Positions 14,212 to 36,891 of a DNA stretch of 64,000 nt are shown here, one piece after another (position 1 is the stretch's first letter; each line of letters starts with the position of its first letter). The notes under the pieces were generated by a model that saw only the letters and a list, made by a program, of their open reading frames with translations, was not told the DNA's origin and searched no databases. Both the position numbers and the translations under genes were made by a program. The DNA comes from Henriciella aquimarina (lineage in GTDB: Bacteria; Pseudomonadota; Alphaproteobacteria; Caulobacterales; Hyphomonadaceae). The stretch lies in assembly GCF_002088975.1 (NCBI RefSeq), contig NZ_NCST01000077.1:1-64000 (forward strand), given 5' to 3'.

Positions 14212-14733
14212 TTAGGCGGACTTGGGGATCGGCTTCGCCGCCTGCTCACGAAGAACGAGGCCGATAGGATCATCCCGGCGCTCGTCCGCCATGAAGGGGG
14301 CGAGATAGTTGTGCAGCTGCTCGATGCTTTGCAGCTTGCGCATGTCGGCGGCGATCTGGCCACGAAGCATTGAAAGGTTCGCTTCCAGCTGGCTGAAGGA
14401 CGCGTCCTCGATGGGCGTCCAGAGTGGCGCGTCCTCGTCATCATCATCCGTGTACGGGATGGCAATGGCGGCGGGCAGCTTCACGCCGGCAAGCTCATAG
14501 GGCATTTCAAACTGCGGAGACTTCAGCTCGTCGCGGTCGGACTTGAGCGCGCGGCGCGCCCATCCGGCGAGAGCCTCTTTCATGAGCATATCCTTTGCGT
14601 CCTCTATAAGGTCGGCGTGTCTGTCCATCACCTCCTCGACGAGCGCTCGTGTCGTCATCGCGCCCTTGGCGCGAAGTTCGAGGGCTATCTGGCTGACGAT
14701 GGTCCGTAGCTTAGCCCGTTGCTGATTGGTCAT
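14212..14733 (-). CDS. Hypothetical protein, partner of the ParB-like gene
   Basis: 173 residues, helical, with an acidic central stretch (TDDDDEDAP) and no membrane segment. It overlaps the 3' end of the ParB-like gene by 23 bases, so the two are coupled. Not recognised; a DNA-binding or ParB-accessory role is only suggested by context. Confidence 0.5.
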   Translation of the reverse strand: MTNQQRAKLRTIVSQIALELRAKGAMTTRALVEEVMDRHADLIEDAKDMLMKEALAGWARRALKSDRDELKSPQFEMPYELAGVKLPAAIAIPYTDDDDEDAPLWTPIEDASFSQLEANLSMLRGQIAADMRKLQSIEQLHNYLAPFMADERRDDPIGLVLREQAAKPIPKSA

Positions 14734-15559
14734 GGTTGACCTCCTGAATTGCCTGAAGAAATGCCATCAGCCGGGGCGCGCGTTCGCGGACCTGTTGGAT
14801 GGTGTAGGGCAGCGCATCGCGGAGAAATTCCTCTCCGGTCATGCCTGCCTCGTCCGCCTGCCTCAGCCCACCATTGATGTCCTGGACCTTCTCGATGATG
14901 TGCTGCTGCATCTTGCGGGCGAGTTCGGGGTCGTCGAGGCTGTAGCCCTCACCCTTCTTGATCCGGCTGACGGCCTTGTTGCGGGCCTTCCGGTCAAGCT
15001 GGATAACTTCGGCCTGAACCTCTTTCGGCTGAGCGGCTATGGTCGCGGCCGCAGAGATCGAGATTTCCTCGTCATCCATCTTGCCGATGAGTTCAGGGAC
15101 TGCGCTCTCGATGACGCTCTTTGCTCGCTCGTAGGTGGTGCCCGACCCGAAACCTGAGCCTTTGGCGGCAAGGTCGCGGTTACGGCCCTGCGGAACTTCG
15201 GCGCAATTGACCCTAAGTTGGTCGGTGCGCTGCCCCTGTCGTTCGCCAAGCATCCGCTCGACGGCCTCGCCGATGGCGACACGCTCGGATATAGTGAAGT
15301 CCTTGCGGACCTCGTTTTCGTCATGCTCACCCTCGATGATGGACGTGACATTGACGATGCGGGCTTCGATTTCTGCCAGTCCGAGAATATCCCGGCACGC
15401 CGTGAGCCGGCGCTCACCGAAGACGAGAAGCCCGTCCTCGGTGACGCCGACAGGCTGGAGCAGCCCCTGTTTCGCGATGCTGTCGGCCAGAGGTTGCAGG
15501 TCGCCCAGCTCGCGGCGGTAGCGTTCGCCGACTCGTATGTCGTCGATTGGCATGAGCAT
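14711..15559 (-). CDS. ParB/Spo0J-like nuclease-domain protein
   Basis: 282 residues. The N-terminal ParB domain shows MPIDDIRVGERYRREL, IAKQGLLQPVGV and the nucleotide-binding box FGERRLTACRDILG (GERR type). HTH-like segments follow. In plasmids such proteins load on parS; in phages relatives also act as transcription regulators. No ParA is visible in the window, so a partition role is doubtful. It belongs to a leftward cargo cluster with the S24 protein. Confidence 0.8.
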   Translation of the reverse strand: MLMPIDDIRVGERYRRELGDLQPLADSIAKQGLLQPVGVTEDGLLVFGERRLTACRDILGLAEIEARIVNVTSIIEGEHDENEVRKDFTISERVAIGEAVERMLGERQGQRTDQLRVNCAEVPQGRNRDLAAKGSGFGSGTTYERAKSVIESAVPELIGKMDDEEISISAAATIAAQPKEVQAEVIQLDRKARNKAVSRIKKGEGYSLDDPELARKMQQHIIEKVQDINGGLRQADEAGMTGEEFLRDALPYTIQQVRERAPRLMAFLQAIQEVNHDQSATG

Positions 15560-25805: not shown

Positions 25806-26825
25806 TTAGGTGTTGCCGACAGCCTTGCGCAGCACGCCCGGACGCTGGCAGAAGTACAGCGGGTAGCTGTACTGTTCGCCACGGGTCCAAGCCTGACGAT
25901 CGCGGTCAAGAACGTTGATCGCGTAGATGTCCTGGCCCAGCGTGTTGACGTACGGGCCGAACTCAGCCGGCGCCATCGCCTTCTTGAAGACGCCGCTCGC
26001 CCCGACCGGGAAGAACTTCGCTTCGTTGGCAGCCACCGCAACCGTCGAATTGTCGTCGGTGCCGCGATAGTTGTGCCAGGTGATGCCGCCAAAGGTGAAT
26101 GCGCTGAACGCCTTGTTCGAACGCAGGTCTTCGGCTGCCGCCCAGTTCTGGTAGGTCTTCTCGACAGTCGGATGCGAGATCAGATTGTCGTAGAACGTGT
26201 CACCGACGAGTGCATGCACGCTCGTCTGAGACGTGAATGCACCCTTCGAGGACCGGGCCATGGCGCGGGTGACCGCCTGACACTTTTCGCGAACCTTCGT
26301 CGTGCTCGTGGTGAGCGCGAAGTCGATGGCTGCGGCTTCGCTGACGCCGAACTCGGAGAAGTAGTCGTAGATCACCGTAGTGCCGTCAGCATCAAGCAGC
26401 TTGCCTTGGAGCGCACCGAGACGATGGTACTCGTGGGTGAGTTCCATGTCGTCGCGGACGCGGGACATGCGACGCAGGTATTCAGCCTGCACCTGCATCA
26501 ACTCGGTTTCGGACCCGAAGCCGCGAATACCCTGCACTTCCTCGGCATAGAGCGTGAAGCCCTTGGCGAGGCGCGTGGTCTTCAGCGGAACCGCGCTGCG
26601 GTTGTCCTTGACCAGTTCTTCCGGCGGAGCGCCGGTCGGAGAGGACGGGATCAGCGAGAGTGTGCCCTCGCGCTCGTCCACGAAGACGGTGCGGGTGCGA
26701 ACCGGCATGTCTTCGAAGATGCCCAGCTCACCGAGCAGTTGCGGTTTGTAGTCGGTTTTCTCAACAGCGCCGGTCAGCGAAGTCATGCTGAACGCAGAGC
26801 TGTTGAACACATCCATGGATGCCAT
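25806..26825 (-). CDS. Major capsid protein (lambda gpE-like)
   Basis: 339 residues with HK97 fold expected. MDVFNSSAFSMTSLTGAVEK, TRTVFVDEREGTLSLIP, FGSETELMQVQAEYLRRM and the C-terminal RPGVLRKA belong to the Phage_cap_E group. It is preceded by its decoration protein, the usual D-then-E order. Confidence 0.92.
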   Translation of the reverse strand: MASMDVFNSSAFSMTSLTGAVEKTDYKPQLLGELGIFEDMPVRTRTVFVDEREGTLSLIPSSPTGAPPEELVKDNRSAVPLKTTRLAKGFTLYAEEVQGIRGFGSETELMQVQAEYLRRMSRVRDDMELTHEYHRLGALQGKLLDADGTTVIYDYFSEFGVSEAAAIDFALTTSTTKVREKCQAVTRAMARSSKGAFTSQTSVHALVGDTFYDNLISHPTVEKTYQNWAAAEDLRSNKAFSAFTFGGITWHNYRGTDDNSTVAVAANEAKFFPVGASGVFKKAMAPAEFGPYVNTLGQDIYAINVLDRDRQAWTRGEQYSYPLYFCQRPGVLRKAVGNT

Positions 26826-27261: not shown

Positions 27262-28428
27262 TTATGCTCCCTTCTTGGCGTTGACGCCCGCACGGGCAAA
27301 CACGTCATCACCCCAGTCGGAGAGATCGACGACTTTCGAATCTTGGATGCCATCAGACAGAGGATTGCGAGGTTTCGCGTCGGCGGTGAGGTGGTCGAAC
27401 AGACCGGCGACATAGTCGTCGGACTTGTCTTTCACCTTCTCGTCACCGAGCTTGGCGGCAACGGCCTGCTTCTTCAGGTCCGCATTCGAGACGTTATCCG
27501 TCTTCAGGCTCGGCGCGATGGCCTTCACCTTGGCGACGATATCCGCGCGATCGGCGACCATCTGGTCGAGCTTCGCGTCGTCGAACTGCTTCGACTTCAG
27601 ATCCTCGATCTCGGCGTCTTTCTTGCCGAGTTCGGTGTCCTTGGCCTTCAGGTCGGCTTGCGCCTTTTCGAGCGCAGCCTTGCTGTCCGCCAGCGCCTTA
27701 TCAGCGTCGGCGAACATCTTCTGGATGATCGGGGCAGCAGCTTCCGGCACATTGACCGGCAGCCCGTCCCTGACAATTTGAGTGGTCTTGTCGGTCATGA
27801 CCGAGTCCTTTCTTTCGTGGTCTTCCACAACGGAGGCACGCGGCCCCCAAATTGAGCGGTCTTTCCCGCCGTCCCCCGCATCGTCTCCGATACGGGTATT
27901 CCCAGCCCGAGGGTTGTTGTCGGGCAGATAAGCAACGTGATTGAAGCGCAACGGGCTGGCCTGCCGGTACTGGTATGGCGTTCCGTCCGGGGCGACGCCC
28001 TCGTCAGCGACGACCTGCACCGTGTAGCCTGCCGACAGCGAGCGGGCGCCGTCAGCTACCTCCTTCGCTGCGGTCGCGTCCATGATCGCCATGGGCGCGA
28101 CAACATGCTCGCCGTCGCGCTTGATCGTGCCGCCAACCTGGCCCTTTGATAGCTCTTTCCAGTTATCGGCGGTGACGGCGGACTCGGGGTGGCCCCGCGT
28201 CACTGGACGACCGGCAAGCGAGAGCATGCTCTGCTCATCGAACACCGTGTCAGGGTCGCGGTACACACCGAACATCTTTGTGGCGTCGTCGCCGGTGAGA
28301 CCAAGTTCGGCCCCGTAATATTGCTGGACGTTCCCGGCCCGGCTGACCTTGGCGTCACCGATCAGGTAGCCGTCCTTGGTCATCTTGAGGCCGGAGGCAT
28401 CAAGCGTCACGCTGTCTCGAATGATCAT
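27262..28428 (-). CDS. DUF2213 prohead protease fused to scaffold domain
   Basis: 388 residues. The N-terminal 190 residues show the DUF2213 protease (GLTGDDATKMFGVYRDPDTVF, GRPVTRGHPESAVTADNW, SAGYTVQV). Residues about 230-330 form a coiled coil (ADKALADSKAALEKAQADL) that would be the scaffold for procapsid assembly, cleaved on maturation. Confidence 0.85.
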   Translation of the reverse strand: MIIRDSVTLDASGLKMTKDGYLIGDAKVSRAGNVQQYYGAELGLTGDDATKMFGVYRDPDTVFDEQSMLSLAGRPVTRGHPESAVTADNWKELSKGQVGGTIKRDGEHVVAPMAIMDATAAKEVADGARSLSAGYTVQVVADEGVAPDGTPYQYRQASPLRFNHVAYLPDNNPRAGNTRIGDDAGDGGKDRSIWGPRASVVEDHERKDSVMTDKTTQIVRDGLPVNVPEAAAPIIQKMFADADKALADSKAALEKAQADLKAKDTELGKKDAEIEDLKSKQFDDAKLDQMVADRADIVAKVKAIAPSLKTDNVSNADLKKQAVAAKLGDEKVKDKSDDYVAGLFDHLTADAKPRNPLSDGIQDSKVVDLSDWGDDVFARAGVNAKKGA

Positions 28429-28736: not shown

Positions 28737-29390
28737 TTATCTCCAGTGCTGGGCGATCCAGCTCTCATCGAGTTCGTGCGGCTTGGACTCGCCGTGGAAA
28801 TATACGATCCGCCCATCCCCCAGCCCGTCCGGCTTGACGTGGCACTTGTAGCTCAGCACCTGCCCCGGAAAGAGCGTGTCCAGAACGTCCGGGTTCTGCC
28901 GGCGTATCCATTCCATGTCGTTCTGCCCGCGCCAGCGGTCATAGACGTAGGCATGCCCGGCAGGGACCAAGGCCACCCCGTTGCACACCCGAGAGGGCCA
29001 GTACGGATCAAGCGGCACGGCAATGCGCTCTGCGGTGAAGCAGTATTCCGCCAGAGCATCACAATTGCCGGTGACGATGGTATCCAGCCCGACGAGGATC
29101 ATGGGCCGGTTCAGCCGGTAGGGTTCGATGCAGTCGCCATATCCCGGCGTCCGGTTGGTCATGAGCCTTTGCGTGATCGGCTCCTCGAAGTCGCGCTCCC
29201 GGTCGGTGAAGCAGATGAACTCGAAGGGTGCAGTCAGGTTTCGGGCGAAGCCGCGATAGAGCTTTTCGGCCCAGCTTTCGTCATAGGCCTGGCTGAAGCT
29301 CTTGCTGTTCTGGTTGCTATCCCAAAGCAGCGTGGCGACGACGAGATCAGGCCGCAAAGCGAACCCGCCTGTTCTGACGGCAGATTTCAT
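28737..29390 (-). CDS. Glycosyltransferase-like protein
   Basis: 217 residues. [20 protein letters not shown] and the metal-site-like [12 protein letters not shown] (in the place of the DxD of GT-A enzymes), then [22 protein letters not shown], resemble GT8-like nucleotide-sugar transferases of phages. Overlaps the acyltransferase gene by 44 bases. It may glycosylate a virion protein or a host glycan. Confidence 0.65.
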
Positions 29391-29880
29391 CTTCCATCGT
29401 GATCGGCCGCATTTCTCCGTGCTTCATCCAGACATGGCAGGCAGGCACATCCTTGGACACAACCGACCCGGCGCCAATCATGGCCCCGACACCGATGCGG
29501 ACGCCGGGAAGGATGACGCTATTCGCGCCGATGCTCGCATCAGGCTCGATAATGATGGCCGGGCGATCCTTGTAGGCCGACACATTGAACCCGTTCTTCC
29601 CGGCGCGTGGCCAGCCATCGTTGCAAAGCGTGACATTCGGGCCGATGAAGACCCGGCTCCCGATTTGAAAGCCGGGACCAGCGGCCAGATTATGCGCGAT
29701 GACCGTCTCGTCACCGACCGTTGATCCGTCGATACAGGCCCCGCTGGCGATAGAGCAGTCTGCCCCGATCACAGCGCCACGGATCACAGAAGCAAATTGC
29801 CAGATGCGCGTGCGCGCCCCGACCGTCGCCCCTTCCACGAGTGCTTTCGGGTGGATAAACGCGTCGGGGTGGATGCTCAT
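29347..29880 (-). CDS. Left-handed beta-helix acyltransferase
   Basis: 177 residues made of hexapeptide repeats (for example [40 protein letters not shown]). This is a WbbJ/maa-type O- or N-acetyltransferase that normally decorates sugars. Flanked by the GT-like and MptE-like genes, so the three probably form one modification unit. Confidence 0.85.
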
Positions 29881-30461
29881 TGCGGGTGAGTCTCCAGACA
29901 CGGGAAGCACTTCAGGGCAGAGTCCGGCGTAGCGTTGAACACCGACACCCGATCACCCAGCCGCGCCGCCATGGCTTCCAGCGAGGGAATGAAGGTGGTC
30001 TCGTACATATTGACCGGCGTCTTCACGCGGTGGTCGTCGTGGTAGTTGCCCGGCCGCATGTCGAAGCCGTGCAGGATGATGCGGTCGGCCCCCATGAGAT
30101 AGGCGAGGTTCAGCGCCATTGCTCCGCCACATGCCCCTGCGAGTTTATGTGGCTGTTCGCTCAGCGTGCCGAACTTGTCGTGCTGTAGCTCCGTGACAGG
30201 CCACGGCAGCTCCCAGCCGCGCGGCTCCTGAAACTGTCGGATGACCCGCCATTTGCTCCGGTTCAGGTGCAGGCGCTCCCGGTTCCAGTCGAACCAGCGC
30301 CGATCCATGACAAACAGAACATCAGCATCGGGGAAGACATCGAGGCCCGCATTGTTGACCGCGATCACGGGGTCAGAGCCGAGGGTTCGGATATCGAGAT
30401 CGTTGATGCTGGGGCCGCCTCCGAGGATGGAAATTGCTTTGCCCCGGAATGCGCCGATCAT
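29877..30461 (-). CDS. MptE/DUF115-like Rossmann protein
   Basis: 194 residues. [33 protein letters not shown] and [10 protein letters not shown] resemble the DUF115/motility-accessory-factor fold, which includes sugar-transfer enzymes such as Maf. The start overlaps the 3' end of the preceding gene by four bases. Exact activity unknown. Confidence 0.6.
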
Positions 30462-30788: not shown

Positions 30789-31064
30789 TCACCCGATCTT
30801 CCCCAGCGCGCCCGGCGCGATATTGATGGTCAGCCCGCCCTTGCCGTCGAACTGGACGCTGCCGGCCTCCGAGGCCGTGAAGATAGGCTCGCGCGGCAAG
30901 CCTTGAGCCACACGCGCTGCAATCGCCCGGACATCGAAGCTGCCTTCCAGCGAGACTGCGGACATATCGTCTGTCTCCACCATCATCAGGCGTGGGGCCT
31001 CGCCCTCCGAGCACTGGGCCTCAAGCGCCTCCATCAGGAGCGCTGTCACGTTTTCGATCTTCAT
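30789..31064 (-). CDS. Small hypothetical head-module protein
   Basis: 91 residues. It starts with ATG overlapping the MuF stop (ATGA at 31064-31061), so it is translated with MuF. Mixed alpha/beta, no known family. The longer open frame to 31181 lies inside the intein-coding end and is rejected. Confidence 0.55.
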   Translation of the reverse strand: MKIENVTALLMEALEAQCSEGEAPRLMMVETDDMSAVSLEGSFDVRAIAARVAQGLPREPIFTASEAGSVQFDGKGGLTINIAPGALGKIG

Positions 31065-32839
31065 AGGCTTCCTTCCACGTCGATGACCGGCTCGGAGACA
31101 CAGCCGCAATTCCCAACCCCGGTTGTTCCTGCTATGTACCAACCTGAAGCAGTTTGGAAATTGTACACATGCCCCTCCCAAGCCCGACTGAAGCAGACCT
31201 CGACTTTGCTATATCGAAGCTCGACGCCGGCGAAACTCTCAAGTCGATTGGCGCCATGGTCGGGTTCCATCCCGATTGCCTGTCCAAGCACCTCCGCTCC
31301 AGGCGCGGATATCGGATCAGCCGCCTCGGCCGCCGCCCTGCTAACAGCATACAGTACGATGAGGCGGAAGCGATCCGCTGTTACCTTGCCGGCGAGTCCG
31401 TCAAATCTCTCAGCGAGCGCCTTGGCCCCATCCGCAAGACCATCACCGAAATGCTTAAGCGCAATGGCATACCAATCAGAGGCGCAGCTGAGGCCGGGCG
31501 CATCGTTTGGGATCGCATGACGCCAGAAGAGCGATTCAAGCAAACGGAGGCAGCCCACGCGGCTCTGACGGGTACTAAGCGCCCAATGCGGCAGCGCCTC
31601 AAACGCGCCCACACGTTCGAAGTCAACGAGAGCCGCGTGGGCATGTTCGAAGACATGCTCTGCAACGCCCTGGCTGATGCAGGCTGTGAGTTCACGCCGC
31701 AAGCCGCCGTCGGCATCTACAACGTCGATATCCTCGTCAGCAATAATGTCGCCGTGGAAGTCTCCACTTCTCCCGTTGGTCGATACCGATCCGAGAATGG
31801 CCTCGCCCGCTGCAAATATCTCGCCGATCGAGGGCTCTCGCTGTTCTATGTACACGTCGCTTGCATGGAGGCGGCTGACGCTCGGCTGAGCGATATAGTC
31901 GCCGACATTCAGCGCCTCAGCCGGCTTCCAGCCGGTGTTCGTGAGAATCGGGTGGTTCGCTGTACAACTTACTCTTTCGCCCGCTTCCGTAATGAACTCG
32001 GTCAGATGGCCGCTGTGCCAACGGCGCCAGATTTTAAGTACATCGTCGTGGATGCTGACTGGCTGCCCTGACGGGAAGCAATAGATGGCCATACCCGGCT
32101 GATCGCCTGCGGGTTCACCCAGCTTGTAGATCCGCCCGTCTCGTGCCTTGTGCTTCGGCCGATAGCGGCGCTTCTGACTATGTCTCCAACGGTACGCTGT
32201 CACCCCGGCTTCCGACATGCGAATCCGGGTGAGTTCCCCATTGAGCTTCTGGGCCTGGTCGACGGCGATGGTGTTTGCGCGACGCCGCGCGATGGCGAGA
32301 CGGCTTGTCAGTTCCTTAGCGATCTCCCGGCGGGGCGTGCCCTCTGTGAACCCGCGCCAGACAATGTCCGCGATTTCCTTCTTCGTCTTCGCGTCCACGT
32401 CCTTAACCAGGTTGGCAATCTGGTTCTGGAAGGCCTTCACACGGGCCGCGTTTTCCTTACGGTCGATGAAGGGGAAGACATCAATGCCCGTCCCGGCCTT
32501 CACCGCATCGGCCCAGCGTTGCTCATGCCAACGGAGGGCGTCTCTCACCCAGCCGCGCACATCTGCCTCGACTGAGACAGTTGCACCGGCCGCTTGCGCC
32601 TCCGCTATCTTGATCGCCTCAGCAAGGTCGTCGCTTTCGTCGTCCTGCGTCAGCGTGGATATAGCCTGACCATAGGCCGGGCGAATCCGGTCGATGACCT
32701 GCCGTTCCCATGCTCGCACCGGACGGACCACGATGCGGTACAAGTCCCGCTTCAGCGTGTCCGTGATCTCGATGCCGCGAAGCACGCGGTTCTTTCGCAG
32801 GCCCTCCTGCCGGGCCAGCTCGGCTAAATCGAAACTCAT
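31061..32839 (-). CDS. MuF-like minor head protein containing an intein
   Basis: 592 residues translated. The N-extein (1-253) is an SPP1 gp7/Mu gpF-type minor head protein: AKTKKEIADIVWRGFTEGT and AIARRRANTIAVDQAQKLNG are its core, ending PGMAIY. The C-extein (578-592) resumes CGCVSEPVID, the conserved cysteine motif of MuF. Residues 254-577 are an intein. After splicing the head protein would be 268 residues. It follows the portal gene with a four-base overlap, as expected. Confidence 0.92.
   Translation of the reverse strand: MSFDLAELARQEGLRKNRVLRGIEITDTLKRDLYRIVVRPVRAWERQVIDRIRPAYGQAISTLTQDDESDDLAEAIKIAEAQAAGATVSVEADVRGWVRDALRWHEQRWADAVKAGTGIDVFPFIDRKENAARVKAFQNQIANLVKDVDAKTKKEIADIVWRGFTEGTPRREIAKELTSRLAIARRRANTIAVDQAQKLNGELTRIRMSEAGVTAYRWRHSQKRRYRPKHKARDGRIYKLGEPAGDQPGMAIYCFPSGQPVSIHDDVLKIWRRWHSGHLTEFITEAGERVSCTANHPILTNTGWKPAEALNVGDYIAQPSVSRLHASDVYIEQREPSIGEIFAAGEAILGSVSTNGRSGDFHGDIIADEDIDVVDADGGLRRELTACISQGVAEHVFEHAHAALVDFERVGAFEALPHWALSTRQSRVGCLRLLESLFWRHAIPNDAPGLSCASDWYAIALKHFGDGLADGAKALAERFDGLAGKVTADRFRLIVLYAVSRAAAEAADPISAPGAEVLGQAIGMEPDHGANRLESFAGVELRYSKVEVCFSRAWEGHVYNFQTASGWYIAGTTGVGNCGCVSEPVIDVEGSL
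31109..32080 (-). other. Intein-coding segment (324 residues)
   Basis: Block A begins at Cys254 (CFPSGQPVS). Block B is TANHPILT with the T-x-x-H pair T293/H296. Block F is HVYNFQTASGWYIA, and block G ends GVGN577, followed by extein Cys578. The penultimate residue is Gly rather than His, an allowed but less common variant. The central portion (about 310-545) has no LAGLIDADG or HNH motif in the sense frame. The opposite strand of the same DNA carries a full endonuclease gene. Confidence 0.88.
31169..32071 (+). CDS. Homing endonuclease nested antisense inside the intein
   Basis: 300 residues from ATG 31169 (GGA at 31156 upstream; TTG 31154 is an alternative start). Two helix-turn-helix units (SIGAMVGFHPDCLSKHL and VKSLSERLGPIRKTITEML) are followed by MTPEERFKQTEAAHAAL and a nuclease core: helix E161 (FEDML), then YNVDILV (D187) and VAVEVS (E197), a PD-(D/E)XK/Vsr-like arrangement as in DUF559-type homing enzymes. 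The gene lies entirely within the intein-coding bases, in exact codon register. A pure shadow ORF would not be expected to show this domain order. Confidence 0.82.
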   Translation: MPLPSPTEADLDFAISKLDAGETLKSIGAMVGFHPDCLSKHLRSRRGYRISRLGRRPANSIQYDEAEAIRCYLAGESVKSLSERLGPIRKTITEMLKRNGIPIRGAAEAGRIVWDRMTPEERFKQTEAAHAALTGTKRPMRQRLKRAHTFEVNESRVGMFEDMLCNALADAGCEFTPQAAVGIYNVDILVSNNVAVEVSTSPVGRYRSENGLARCKYLADRGLSLFYVHVACMEAADARLSDIVADIQRLSRLPAGVRENRVVRCTTYSFARFRNELGQMAAVPTAPDFKYIVVDADWLP

Positions 32840-34731
32840 GACCGTTTGACGAAGCGCCCGCGTGCGTCACGGGGGAGCGCGTCCTTCGTGTTGGGGCGCC
32901 AGCTATCGACGAACTCCTCGAAGATTTCCGGACCAAGCTCAATCCTGCCGGTGAACGGCTTGACCTTCGACAAGTCCATGTCGCCCGCGCCCTCATAGAC
33001 GATCGAGATGTGAGGCTCGAAGGACGGGAAGCTCCATTCCGCGCCAGTCTTGCGTTTGATGTCTTCGTGGCGCCAGGACAGTTCCGACGATGCGAAGTGC
33101 AGGACAACGGCGCCCTTGTCGCCAAGAGGCTCGACGATACGAGGTCCGCCAGCCGGAACAATCAGCTTGCCGTCGCGCTCCTGAAGGAAGGTGTCGGACG
33201 CCTTCATCCAGTCTACCGGCGTCTTGGAGTGCATAATCGTTACATGCATGTCGTCGGCGGCGAGCGGCTTCTCGAAGCCCTGCTCTTTCGCCCACTTCAC
33301 GATCTCGCCAGCGTTCAGTACCTTCCGATGCACATACAGCGTGCGGGGCTCCGCATCGGCCGTCTGCGTCGGGTCCGCTTCCGGGTCGTCTGGATCAACC
33401 GGCGCGTCAGGGTCCGGATTGTTTGGATCGCCGGCATTCGGGTCGAAGTCCGGGCTTTCCTCGCCGAACTCTTCATAAGCCGCCTCGATGCCGGGCCACT
33501 CTCCTGACTCTATCAGCACGTTCCGCACCGCCTTAGCCAGAACCGCGGACGGGATAAGGCCGGTAGCCGAAAGCTTGGATACAGTCTCTGAGCGGTCTTT
33601 CTCTATTTTGACGCGCTGGTCATCATCAAGCTGCCAAAGCGGATTCCACTTGTACCAGATCGCCTCGTCTCGAGAGCCGAGCGCCGAGCGGATCAGAACC
33701 TCATCCAGCCGCGAGAGTGTCGGGCCAAGCGTGAGCGTCTGTTCGGCGCGGATGCGGTCGTAATAGTTGCGAAGCGCGCTTTCGCCGTCGCTGTTCAGCC
33801 CGCCGGGCGCCTGACCAAGCAGCCGGGTCGCCGGAATATCGGACACGCCGGAGACGATCTGCAAGTACTCGCGGATGATCTCGGGCAGGTTGGAGAAGCT
33901 GATCTGCTTCTGTTCATATTCTTCCTCGGCGTCGAGGATCAGCCCGTTGACAATCGACTTGATGGCGTTGGCCGTCTCGAAGCGCTGGACGAGCCGGCTG
34001 GAATATTCCTTCGTGGCCAGGTTCTCCATGAGACCCGGCACCTTGAACACGTCGACCTTCGCCTCCTGGACGAGGGACGCAATGCCGGAGATCGCAGCGC
34101 CTGCATTCTGCAATGCTTCATTGACCGACTGAAGAATGCTGTCGCCCCAGCCATGCGGGGAAAACTGATAGTCCGGACACTCATTGCCCGTGAAGCGGAC
34201 GACGCGGGAGGGGTGAACGCGGTACAGGATGCCCGAATCCGTTGTCCACTGATAGTATTCAGGCTCGCGGAACCATTCTCCTTCCGGATCAGTGCGAAGT
34301 GTCGAGGCAACAAGCTCATGCCGGTGCATGACGTGCGCCCAGCGCAAATCATCCTTGCCGACACGCTCCGGGTCCAGCGGCTCCATCGGGTCGTCGGCGC
34401 CCACACCCATGACGATGCCGGCGCCGCCGTATAGCCGCGCAAGGATCTGCGCCTGCTTGACCTTGCCCCGGATATTGAGACGGGTCTCTTCCTTCTCGAT
34501 GGCCTCGATCTGGTCACTGTCGGCCTGCCAGGCACGCCACTCGCGCACCATGTCGAAGGCTGGCGCATCGACGACCTTGCGAGACAGGCCGTCGCCGCGA
34601 TAGGCGTTCGACAGTTGCTCACGGGATAGTTCGGCAAAGCCCCAGCTGTTGGCCGCAGTCTTGTCGCGCAGCCCGCCGAGGCCGGAAAGGACGTTGGCGA
34701 GCCGGTCGCCTATGAAGGTCATAGCGCCCAT
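32836..34731 (-). CDS. Portal protein fused to Acb1-like 2H phosphoesterase
   Basis: 631 residues. Residues 1-400 are a DUF1073-type portal (AYRGDGLSRKVVDAPAFDM, ILARLYGGAGIVMG, RLLGQAPGGLNSDGESALRNYYD). An acidic Pro/Asp linker follows, then about 463-631: RTLYVHRKVLNAGEIVKWAK, DMHVTIMHS (H496, T498) and EPHISIV (H574, S576). The two HxT/S motifs are the 2H catalytic pair of Acb1, which degrades CBASS cyclic nucleotides. The ATG overlaps the TerL stop. Confidence 0.88.
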   Translation of the reverse strand: MGAMTFIGDRLANVLSGLGGLRDKTAANSWGFAELSREQLSNAYRGDGLSRKVVDAPAFDMVREWRAWQADSDQIEAIEKEETRLNIRGKVKQAQILARLYGGAGIVMGVGADDPMEPLDPERVGKDDLRWAHVMHRHELVASTLRTDPEGEWFREPEYYQWTTDSGILYRVHPSRVVRFTGNECPDYQFSPHGWGDSILQSVNEALQNAGAAISGIASLVQEAKVDVFKVPGLMENLATKEYSSRLVQRFETANAIKSIVNGLILDAEEEYEQKQISFSNLPEIIREYLQIVSGVSDIPATRLLGQAPGGLNSDGESALRNYYDRIRAEQTLTLGPTLSRLDEVLIRSALGSRDEAIWYKWNPLWQLDDDQRVKIEKDRSETVSKLSATGLIPSAVLAKAVRNVLIESGEWPGIEAAYEEFGEESPDFDPNAGDPNNPDPDAPVDPDDPEADPTQTADAEPRTLYVHRKVLNAGEIVKWAKEQGFEKPLAADDMHVTIMHSKTPVDWMKASDTFLQERDGKLIVPAGGPRIVEPLGDKGAVVLHFASSELSWRHEDIKRKTGAEWSFPSFEPHISIVYEGAGDMDLSKVKPFTGRIELGPEIFEEFVDSWRPNTKDALPRDARGRFVKRS

Positions 34732-36401
34732 CACAGATTGTCCAGCGTGTATTTGGACTTCGGCGGAATCGGATGCAGGCACATGATCGCGCCGTCCGCG
34801 AGGTTCGGCGAGCGCGTGCCGTCAGGGGTCTTGTTGATGATCAGCTTCATGTTGGCGCTCTGCCCCATGGTCGGCTGGCTCAATTCCTTGACCAGCGTGT
34901 GTAGATGCGGGAGGTCGCTCGATATCGAGACAAGCTCGTCGGGCTCCCATGTGAAGCCGGGCTCATGGATGGCCCGGTATGTCTTTTCGAAGCGGCGGCG
35001 TGCGAGCCACCAGGCCTGAGCCTTGAGATTGGCGGCGAAGTCCTTCCAGAGCGGGCTGTTGCGGTCCCTTGGCTCCACATGGCCATCAGGATCCAGAACC
35101 TTTGCCCCGGCATTCCATGGCACAAGGTTGAGCCCCTTCGGCATGTCGCCGTTCTCAGCAAGCCGGTTGGCTTCCGCCTTCACGCCGGCACCGACCCCGA
35201 TGGAGTCGTATTGAAGCGCTCCACCTTCCGGCGGGGCCGCTGCGATAGCCTTGCGTGTTGTGACCCCCGTATCGCGTTCAGACCATGTGTCCGAAGCGCT
35301 GAGCAGGATGCCATGCCGCCAGATGGTCGCGTTCGTATCGATACCGCCGTCGGCCACGTCGAGCGCGCCGATGTGCGGGCCGGTGACCTCGATGCCGAGC
35401 TTGATGTGTGCGTCGATTGCCGCCTTCACCCAATCAGCGGGGATCACGATGCCTTCCACGGCAGCGGCGTAATCGCGGTCAACCTCCTGGGCGAAGGTGT
35501 GCAGAAGCCCCTCGTCCTGAGCCTGTTTTTTCCGGCGGTCATACCAGGCCTGATCCTTGGCCGGGTGGTCGCGCCAGTCCATGATGAAGACGTTCGTCGC
35601 ACCCTTCAGCGCAGGCTTGCCGGTCTGCCATTCATGGCCAGCTTCCCGGCGCCGGTAGAAGACGTTGCCGATACCATTGACCGAAGAGATGTCGATCGGC
35701 ACCCGCGTGTTATCCCCAAGTGCCGCCTCGATCAGTTCAGGGCGCTCATAGTGGGCGCTCTCATCCTTGAAGTAGATGAGCTTGCGGCCGCCGCGTCCGA
35801 TATTGTCGCCCGCCTCGCCGGTGATTGTCGCCCCTGAATCCGGGTTGATCACCTTCATGTAGGACATGTGCTCGTCGGGATTGAACCCATCCGGCCAGAA
35901 CTCGCGGGGCAGCCCCCGGATCACCATTCTGATCTTCTGGAAGATGCTGTCAGGATCGCCGATCTTGTCGACCAGGATTTCCTTTCGAGACCCCCAGCCG
36001 ACGGCGGCGCCATCCCAGAACAGCCAGAGCCAGACCGAGAAAGCGACGGCCACCCAGGTCGCGCCCATGTCCCGGCACTTCTCGACCAGCCCCCCGGTCT
36101 CGCCTTTCAGGCAGGCCATGAAGAAGCCGACCAGGTCGACCTGCCGGGGAAAGAGCTGCAGCGGCAAACGCGCCGGCAGGTCGGTGCCTGCGTTCCGCGG
36201 GTCGTAGGTGTCGACCCAGTGATTGATGAACTCGACTGGGCGGGTGCGGTAATATTCCTTGGCGCCGAAAGCGAGAACCGGGTCGGCCCTCAGCCGGGAT
36301 AGCTGGCGCTGCCTCCATCCGTACACCGGGACAGGATCAGGCGGCCACTCTCCTTCAGCAAGACCGTTTGGAACCGGCCACTCGGCCTCATCCTTCGCCA
36401 T
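34731..36401 (-). CDS. Terminase large subunit
   Basis: 556 residues. An atypical Walker A ([11 protein letters not shown]), a Walker B ([13 protein letters not shown]) and the nuclease motif [10 protein letters not shown] identify the packaging motor ATPase/nuclease. It works with the small subunit directly upstream (14-base overlap) and the portal downstream. Confidence 0.94.
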
Positions 36402-36891
36402 GGTTCAGGGAGTCCTGATAGGCCTCCGCTGCTTCCTTCGCCGACATGGACTTGTTCACCGTCTGCATCGGACCGCCATTCGGGCCGCTGTGTTCATGCT
36501 TCTCGGCAAGGCCAAGGTCACGGGCGATGATGCGCGGGTTCAGCAGGTCGGCGGCAGCGCCTTCGAACTTCTGCTGGCGGATAATGGAATCCACTCGCGA
36601 TGTGACCAAAGTAAAATCTTCGGAGCGCGTGCGGTATTCAGCCCATGTGACTTGAGCGATATCAAGGAAGTTGCAGAGGCCCGCGATGGTCATGGCGCGC
36701 ATCTTGGGGACGGGGTGATCGTGGGCGCTGCCCTCGAACTTTACGACATCGACCCCATAGAGCGGGTTTTCTTCGACCCACTCGAAATATTCGACGCAGG
36801 CGCCCCATAGATCATCCGGGCTCTCGAAGATTGGCTTTCGCCCATGGGAGCTGCGGGCTTCCCAGAAACGGTTTCCTGCCGGTGCTGCCAT
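36388..36891 (-). CDS. Terminase small subunit
   Basis: 167 residues. [26 protein letters not shown] and the later ISAL-like helices match the alphaproteobacterial phage TerS group; it recognises the packaging site. First gene of the late morphogenesis operon, directly downstream of the TnpB insertion. Confidence 0.88.

Follow-up and report, generated by a model that had tools for sequence, protein, structure and literature searches.

The closest described relatives of the enzyme considered here are the anti-CBASS phosphodiesterases of the Acb1 type, T4 gp57B and the Acb1 of FBB1 (PDB 7t26/7t27). In T4 Acb1, H44, T46, H113 and T115 are catalytic, Y12, W74, F107 and W147 are stacking residues and E141 contacts the base (PMC9117128). 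These proteins are standalone, and the Acb1 enzymes of the founding paper were assayed as separate recombinant proteins (PMC9117128). Iyer et al. 2017 (PMC5512222) described fusions of 2H domains with MuF or portal domains, for which they suggested either a role as RNases or the breakdown of defence nucleotides once injected; a 2022 follow-up (PMC9503650) again proposes that such proteins are packaged and injected, with SMODS and CRISPR signalling as the targets. The Henriciella protein described below, a phage portal with a C-terminal Acb1-type domain, has the architecture of these fusions, and the idea of packaging, injection and signal destruction is the same, so that neither the architecture nor the injection hypothesis is new. 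A previous reading of this DNA from its letters (hereafter the sequence-only reading) had called the pairing of DUF1073 with Acb1 known at family level, which agrees with these published 2H-portal fusions, and its virion role not settled, which is correct as to the role but passes over an injection hypothesis already printed in 2017 and 2022. In the accessible text of the two papers, Acb1, several portal families, a fusion of 2H with a protease and the gain, loss or exchange of the domain are not named, and the 2022 paper names only Nudix together with a head protease; our literature search, which covered few subscription papers, found no work joining Acb1 with a portal fusion. What appears to be added here is the assignment at the level of Acb1, the range of unrelated partners (head proteases included), the natural gain, loss and exchange of the domain, and the observation that this domain is unmodelled in the portal of cyanophage Pam3.

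The window (the whole stretch of 64,000 nucleotides that was analysed) carries the fusion gene in what profile matches and gene order identify as the prophage of a temperate tailed phage, which also encodes a tape measure, a tail fibre, RecT and a CI-like repressor. The genes to which we refer are the following:

25806-26825, minus strand: major capsid protein E (profile match)
27262-28428, minus strand: DUF2213 head maturation protease/scaffold (profile matches)
31061-32839, minus strand: MuF-like head protein, interrupted by an intein (profile matches)
32836-34731, minus strand: portal-Acb1 fusion gene, 631 aa and a stop codon (open reading frame with an ATG start)
34731-36401, minus strand: large terminase (phrog_2, phrog_5989)
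36388-36891, minus strand: small terminase (phrog_606)

The fusion gene overlaps the large terminase gene by 1 nt and the MuF gene by 4 nt. A GTG at 34782 is not needed as its start, since a protein start of the MGAF/MGAM type is common to the relatives, and no internal start codon was seen when one was looked for just before the Acb1 domain. Two further genes lie within the head block, between DUF2213 and MuF, one glycosyltransferase-like and the other sialyltransferase-like (28737-29390 and 29877-30461, both on the minus strand), and a ParB-like nuclease gene (14711-15559, minus strand) sits amid the tail genes. Within the fusion itself, the elements are:

33577-34617, minus strand: portal domain PF06381, aa 39-385 (E 4.9e-102)
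33346-33441, minus strand: acidic linker rich in Asp and Pro, about aa 431-462 (predicted disordered)
32896-33345, minus strand: Acb1 domain PF23474, about aa 463-612 (E 2.3e-36)
33334-33336, minus strand: Y466, equivalent to the base-stacking Y12 of T4 Acb1 (alignment; residue role from PMC9117128)
33238-33246, minus strand: first catalytic motif, H496-x-T498, equivalent to T4 H44/T46 (alignment)
33004-33012, minus strand: second catalytic motif, H574-x-S576, equivalent to T4 H113/T115 (alignment)

The portal part belongs to the PF06381/HI1409 family, both by profile (TIGR01555 gives 252 bits against a cut-off of 196) and by the position of its gene between the terminase and the MuF and capsid genes. 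The two-domain composition put forward in the sequence-only reading is thus borne out, and its two motifs, together with the context at aa 463-482 (RTLYVHRKVLNAGEIVKWAK), lie exactly where it placed them. The region aa 425-460, which spans most of the linker, has a pLDDT below 50 in a model of the full-length portal; this model is poor as a whole (pLDDT 57.6) and served only to find the Pam3 structure discussed below and its modelled length.

The assignment of the C-terminal domain to the Acb1 type is strong, resting on sequence and predicted structure together. The match to PF23474 is not a chance one, for it reaches 125.1 bits against a curated cut-off of 27. An AlphaFold model of the domain (pLDDT 82.5) is closest to the Acb1-cGAMP complex 7t27 (Z 16.0, rmsd 2.1 Å over 134 residues), followed by 7t26 (Z 15.9), the Burkholderia phage phosphodiesterase 9q2y (Z 13.9) and LigT (11.5). 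In the alignment with T4 Acb1, H496 and T498 correspond to H44 and T46, and H574 and S576 to H113 and T115; misalignment of the two histidines was one of the two outcomes that the sequence-only reading had named as fatal to its proposal, and in alignment and fold the proposal has held up. Among the positions that contact the base, Y466, F568, E605 and W611 fall on Y12, F107, E141 and W147. The Henriciella domain differs from the standalone enzymes in being fused to a portal, in sharing only about 25% identity with them, in having a predicted rather than an assayed activity, and in the replacement of W74 by a glutamate (E534), so that its pocket is not that of T4 Acb1. This tryptophan does not define the family, however, because PX29 gp57B likewise has none aligned there.

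One could also imagine that the domain acts on RNA, processing cyclic-phosphate ends or working as an RNase in the manner of LigT and Usb1, and leaves defence nucleotides alone. This is one of the options put forward by Iyer 2017 (PMC5512222), the LigT fold is related, and the PHROG label of the family (PHROG 755) is "RNA ligase". We nevertheless hold it to be improbable: the domain is matched specifically by the Acb1 model, whereas the 2-5 RNA ligase model is far weaker on it (E 0.057) and generic 2H/RNA-ligase profiles barely reach it; the structural score for 7t27 is well above that for LigT; and Y12 of Acb1 is kept, with an aromatic residue at the position of F107.

The Acb1 assignment is also consistent with what is conserved. 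The conservation of H44 and T46 in loci fetched with HVT patterns follows from the pattern itself, and conservation was re-measured on loci fetched with patterns lying outside both motifs. There the catalytic tetrad is intact in 72 of 72 unique domains; Y12, H44, T46 and H113 are invariant, and the T115 position holds T in 70 and S in 2. In the head-fused clade RTLYV is the typical form of this motif, and only its Y (Y466, that is T4 Y12) is common to all sequences including T4. Judging from these residues, the enzyme is kept in a catalytically intact state.

Closely related phages may have the domain or lack it. Of 50,697 phage records 1782 match the portal, but only 32 of these matches cover 80% or more of the fusion, which makes the Acb1 domain an accessory. 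The related phages L029 and L039 share 89% identity as far as the linker and 95% beyond the domain; between these stretches they differ by the clean presence or absence of a block of about 440 bp that holds the domain; the domain-free close relatives keep an otherwise homologous head module. No Acb1 was found elsewhere in six records with domain-free portals (these records may be fragments); for phages with a protease-fused domain, a search of the host genome or contig turned up no second Acb1. Exchange is seen as well as gain and loss. A copy of the Acb1 domain with 95% identity was found in a Henriciella MAG, which makes Henriciella (Hyphomonadaceae) the very probable host. Compared with the window, the Henriciella MAG L130 is 88-100% identical over the domain and 32-72% over the portal, whereas L134 is 50-96% identical over the portal and only 46-62% over the domain; from these opposite patterns we conclude that the domain has been exchanged between divergent Henriciella portals.

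The partners of the domain were surveyed in 284 unique domains, drawn from the best 80 loci of each scan, so that the counts are not frequencies. The domain is always C-terminal to portals (PF06381 in 218 cases, the Mu-type PF06074 in 25, the HK97-type PF04860 in 11) and always N-terminal to head proteases (DUF2213 in 8, XkdF in 2, S78 in 1), and Pfam confirmed the fusion partners in representative sequences. The remaining 19 include portal-Acb1-MuF chains or fragments, one protease-like chain, four standalone domains, and very long proteins or proteins with an ART-PolyVal domain. No fusion to a tail, lysis or major capsid protein was recognised in this sample, in which a few long proteins stayed unclassified. 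In a tree of 109 domains (a quick one), there are about 19 changes of partner label, against a minimum of 10 and a shuffled mean of 56.6, and the head-associated domains fall into a single large group, to which the two T4-type gp57B rows, on long branches, do not belong. One lineage of the enzyme has thus been re-attached to head proteins repeatedly.

Some of these loci deserve mention in their own right. The fusions to head proteases (S78, XkdF and DUF2213) are L189, L177, L234, L005, L183, L205 and L209, and the contig of L177 is binned as the archaeon Methanoperedens. In L219, L220, L235 and L263, one chain unites an HK97-like portal with Acb1 and MuF, or is a fragment of such a chain (seen by Pfam in L219 and L263). 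In L223, L257, L239, L248, L271 and L237 the Acb1 domain occurs within very long phage proteins or beside ART-PolyVal, as in polyvalent proteins. Roseophage DSS3P8 gp129 (L018:3989-4441), whose annotation as a "prohead protease" suggested another fusion, is a standalone Acb1 of 150 aa.

Portal C-termini point into the capsid, and the other two kinds of partner, head proteases and MuF, are interior proteins too. The simplest factor common to the three is therefore that the domain is packaged cargo. We think that there is about an even chance that the Henriciella protein contains a working Acb1-type 2H phosphodiesterase, cleaving the cyclic di- or trinucleotides of CBASS and carried as cargo of the phage head. 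Up to twelve copies of the domain would be packed inside the capsid through the portal C-terminus, as the sequence-only reading proposed, and it must be said that twelve copies per virion are few. The portal itself stays behind when the capsid empties, and an uncut fusion would have no access to the host cytoplasm as infection begins. For delivery, a protease would have to release the domain first; the simplest scheme is a cut at the acidic linker made by the head maturation protease, for which the DUF2213 protein is a candidate, after which the freed domain would be ejected with the DNA and act in the next host. If a head-fused Acb1 is active and enters in this way, its phages would own a pre-made antidote to an infection-triggered defence, and this would also account for the repeated joining of one enzyme lineage to head proteins. 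The broader proposal, in which a single Acb1 lineage joined again and again to three portal families, at least three head-protease families and MuF would be freed by the maturation protease, injected with the DNA and used to destroy CBASS signals before phage genes are expressed, is one that we advance tentatively, as something short of an even bet. The close relatives with and without the domain are natural controls that make the published hypothesis directly testable.

The portal of cyanophage Pam3 (8hds, 621 aa) provides a view of such a protein in the virion. It is a full-length homologue of the Henriciella protein (E 1.3e-136) and has the Acb1 domain in its sequence, yet in the portal-adaptor structure, with its twelve chains, only 442 of the 621 residues are modelled and the Acb1 domain is not seen; 8hds was also not among the matches of a structure search with the Acb1-domain model. 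Taken together, these two observations indicate that the domain is flexible or gone in the Pam3 particle, and the missing map region fits cleavage or simple flexibility. The unmodelled tail would also suit a non-catalytic extension of the portal, with a structural or regulatory role, but we regard this as very improbable given a tetrad intact in all 72 domains and close relatives that do without the domain in a head module otherwise homologous.

A serious rival to delivery, to which we give clearly less than an even chance, is that the same enzyme acts late, in the cell that produces the phage. On newly made portal or protease chains the domain would be in contact with the cytoplasm, and CBASS signals would be destroyed just as head proteins trigger them, with nothing being ejected. 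The fused partners are indeed late head-assembly proteins, this scheme sidesteps the problem that portals are not injected, and an interaction of a prohead protease with a CBASS sensor has been reported (Richmond-Buccola 2024, as cited in PMC12409349). A free late gene would do equally well for this purpose, yet fusion is repeatedly specific to head-interior proteins, and the sample of 284 domains, within the limits given above, contains no recognised tail, lysis or major capsid fusion.

Returning to the cargo reading, its target would lie in other hosts, or be another signal, because a profile search for SMODS-type cyclases found none in the genome to which the window belongs. Across 105 genomes of the host family, such CBASS-type cyclases score above the cut-off in 12 (16 at E <= 0.001).

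Finally, the intein of the neighbouring MuF gene contains, on the opposite (plus) strand, an open reading frame of 305 codons (31154-32071). Its full length is open and conserved, with some 33% identity, among Klebsiella, Edwardsiella, Haemophilus and Gordonia phages, and over the same bases the alignment scores of the antisense frame exceed those of the sense frame (362 vs 243, 350 vs 211, 319 vs 209 and 273 vs 141). Among the Henriciella relatives, the differences favour third over first positions of the antisense frame in every comparison. By eye, its product looks like an HTH joined to a nuclease of the PD-(D/E)XK/Vsr type, which makes the frame a candidate gene for a homing endonuclease, antisense to the intein that houses it.
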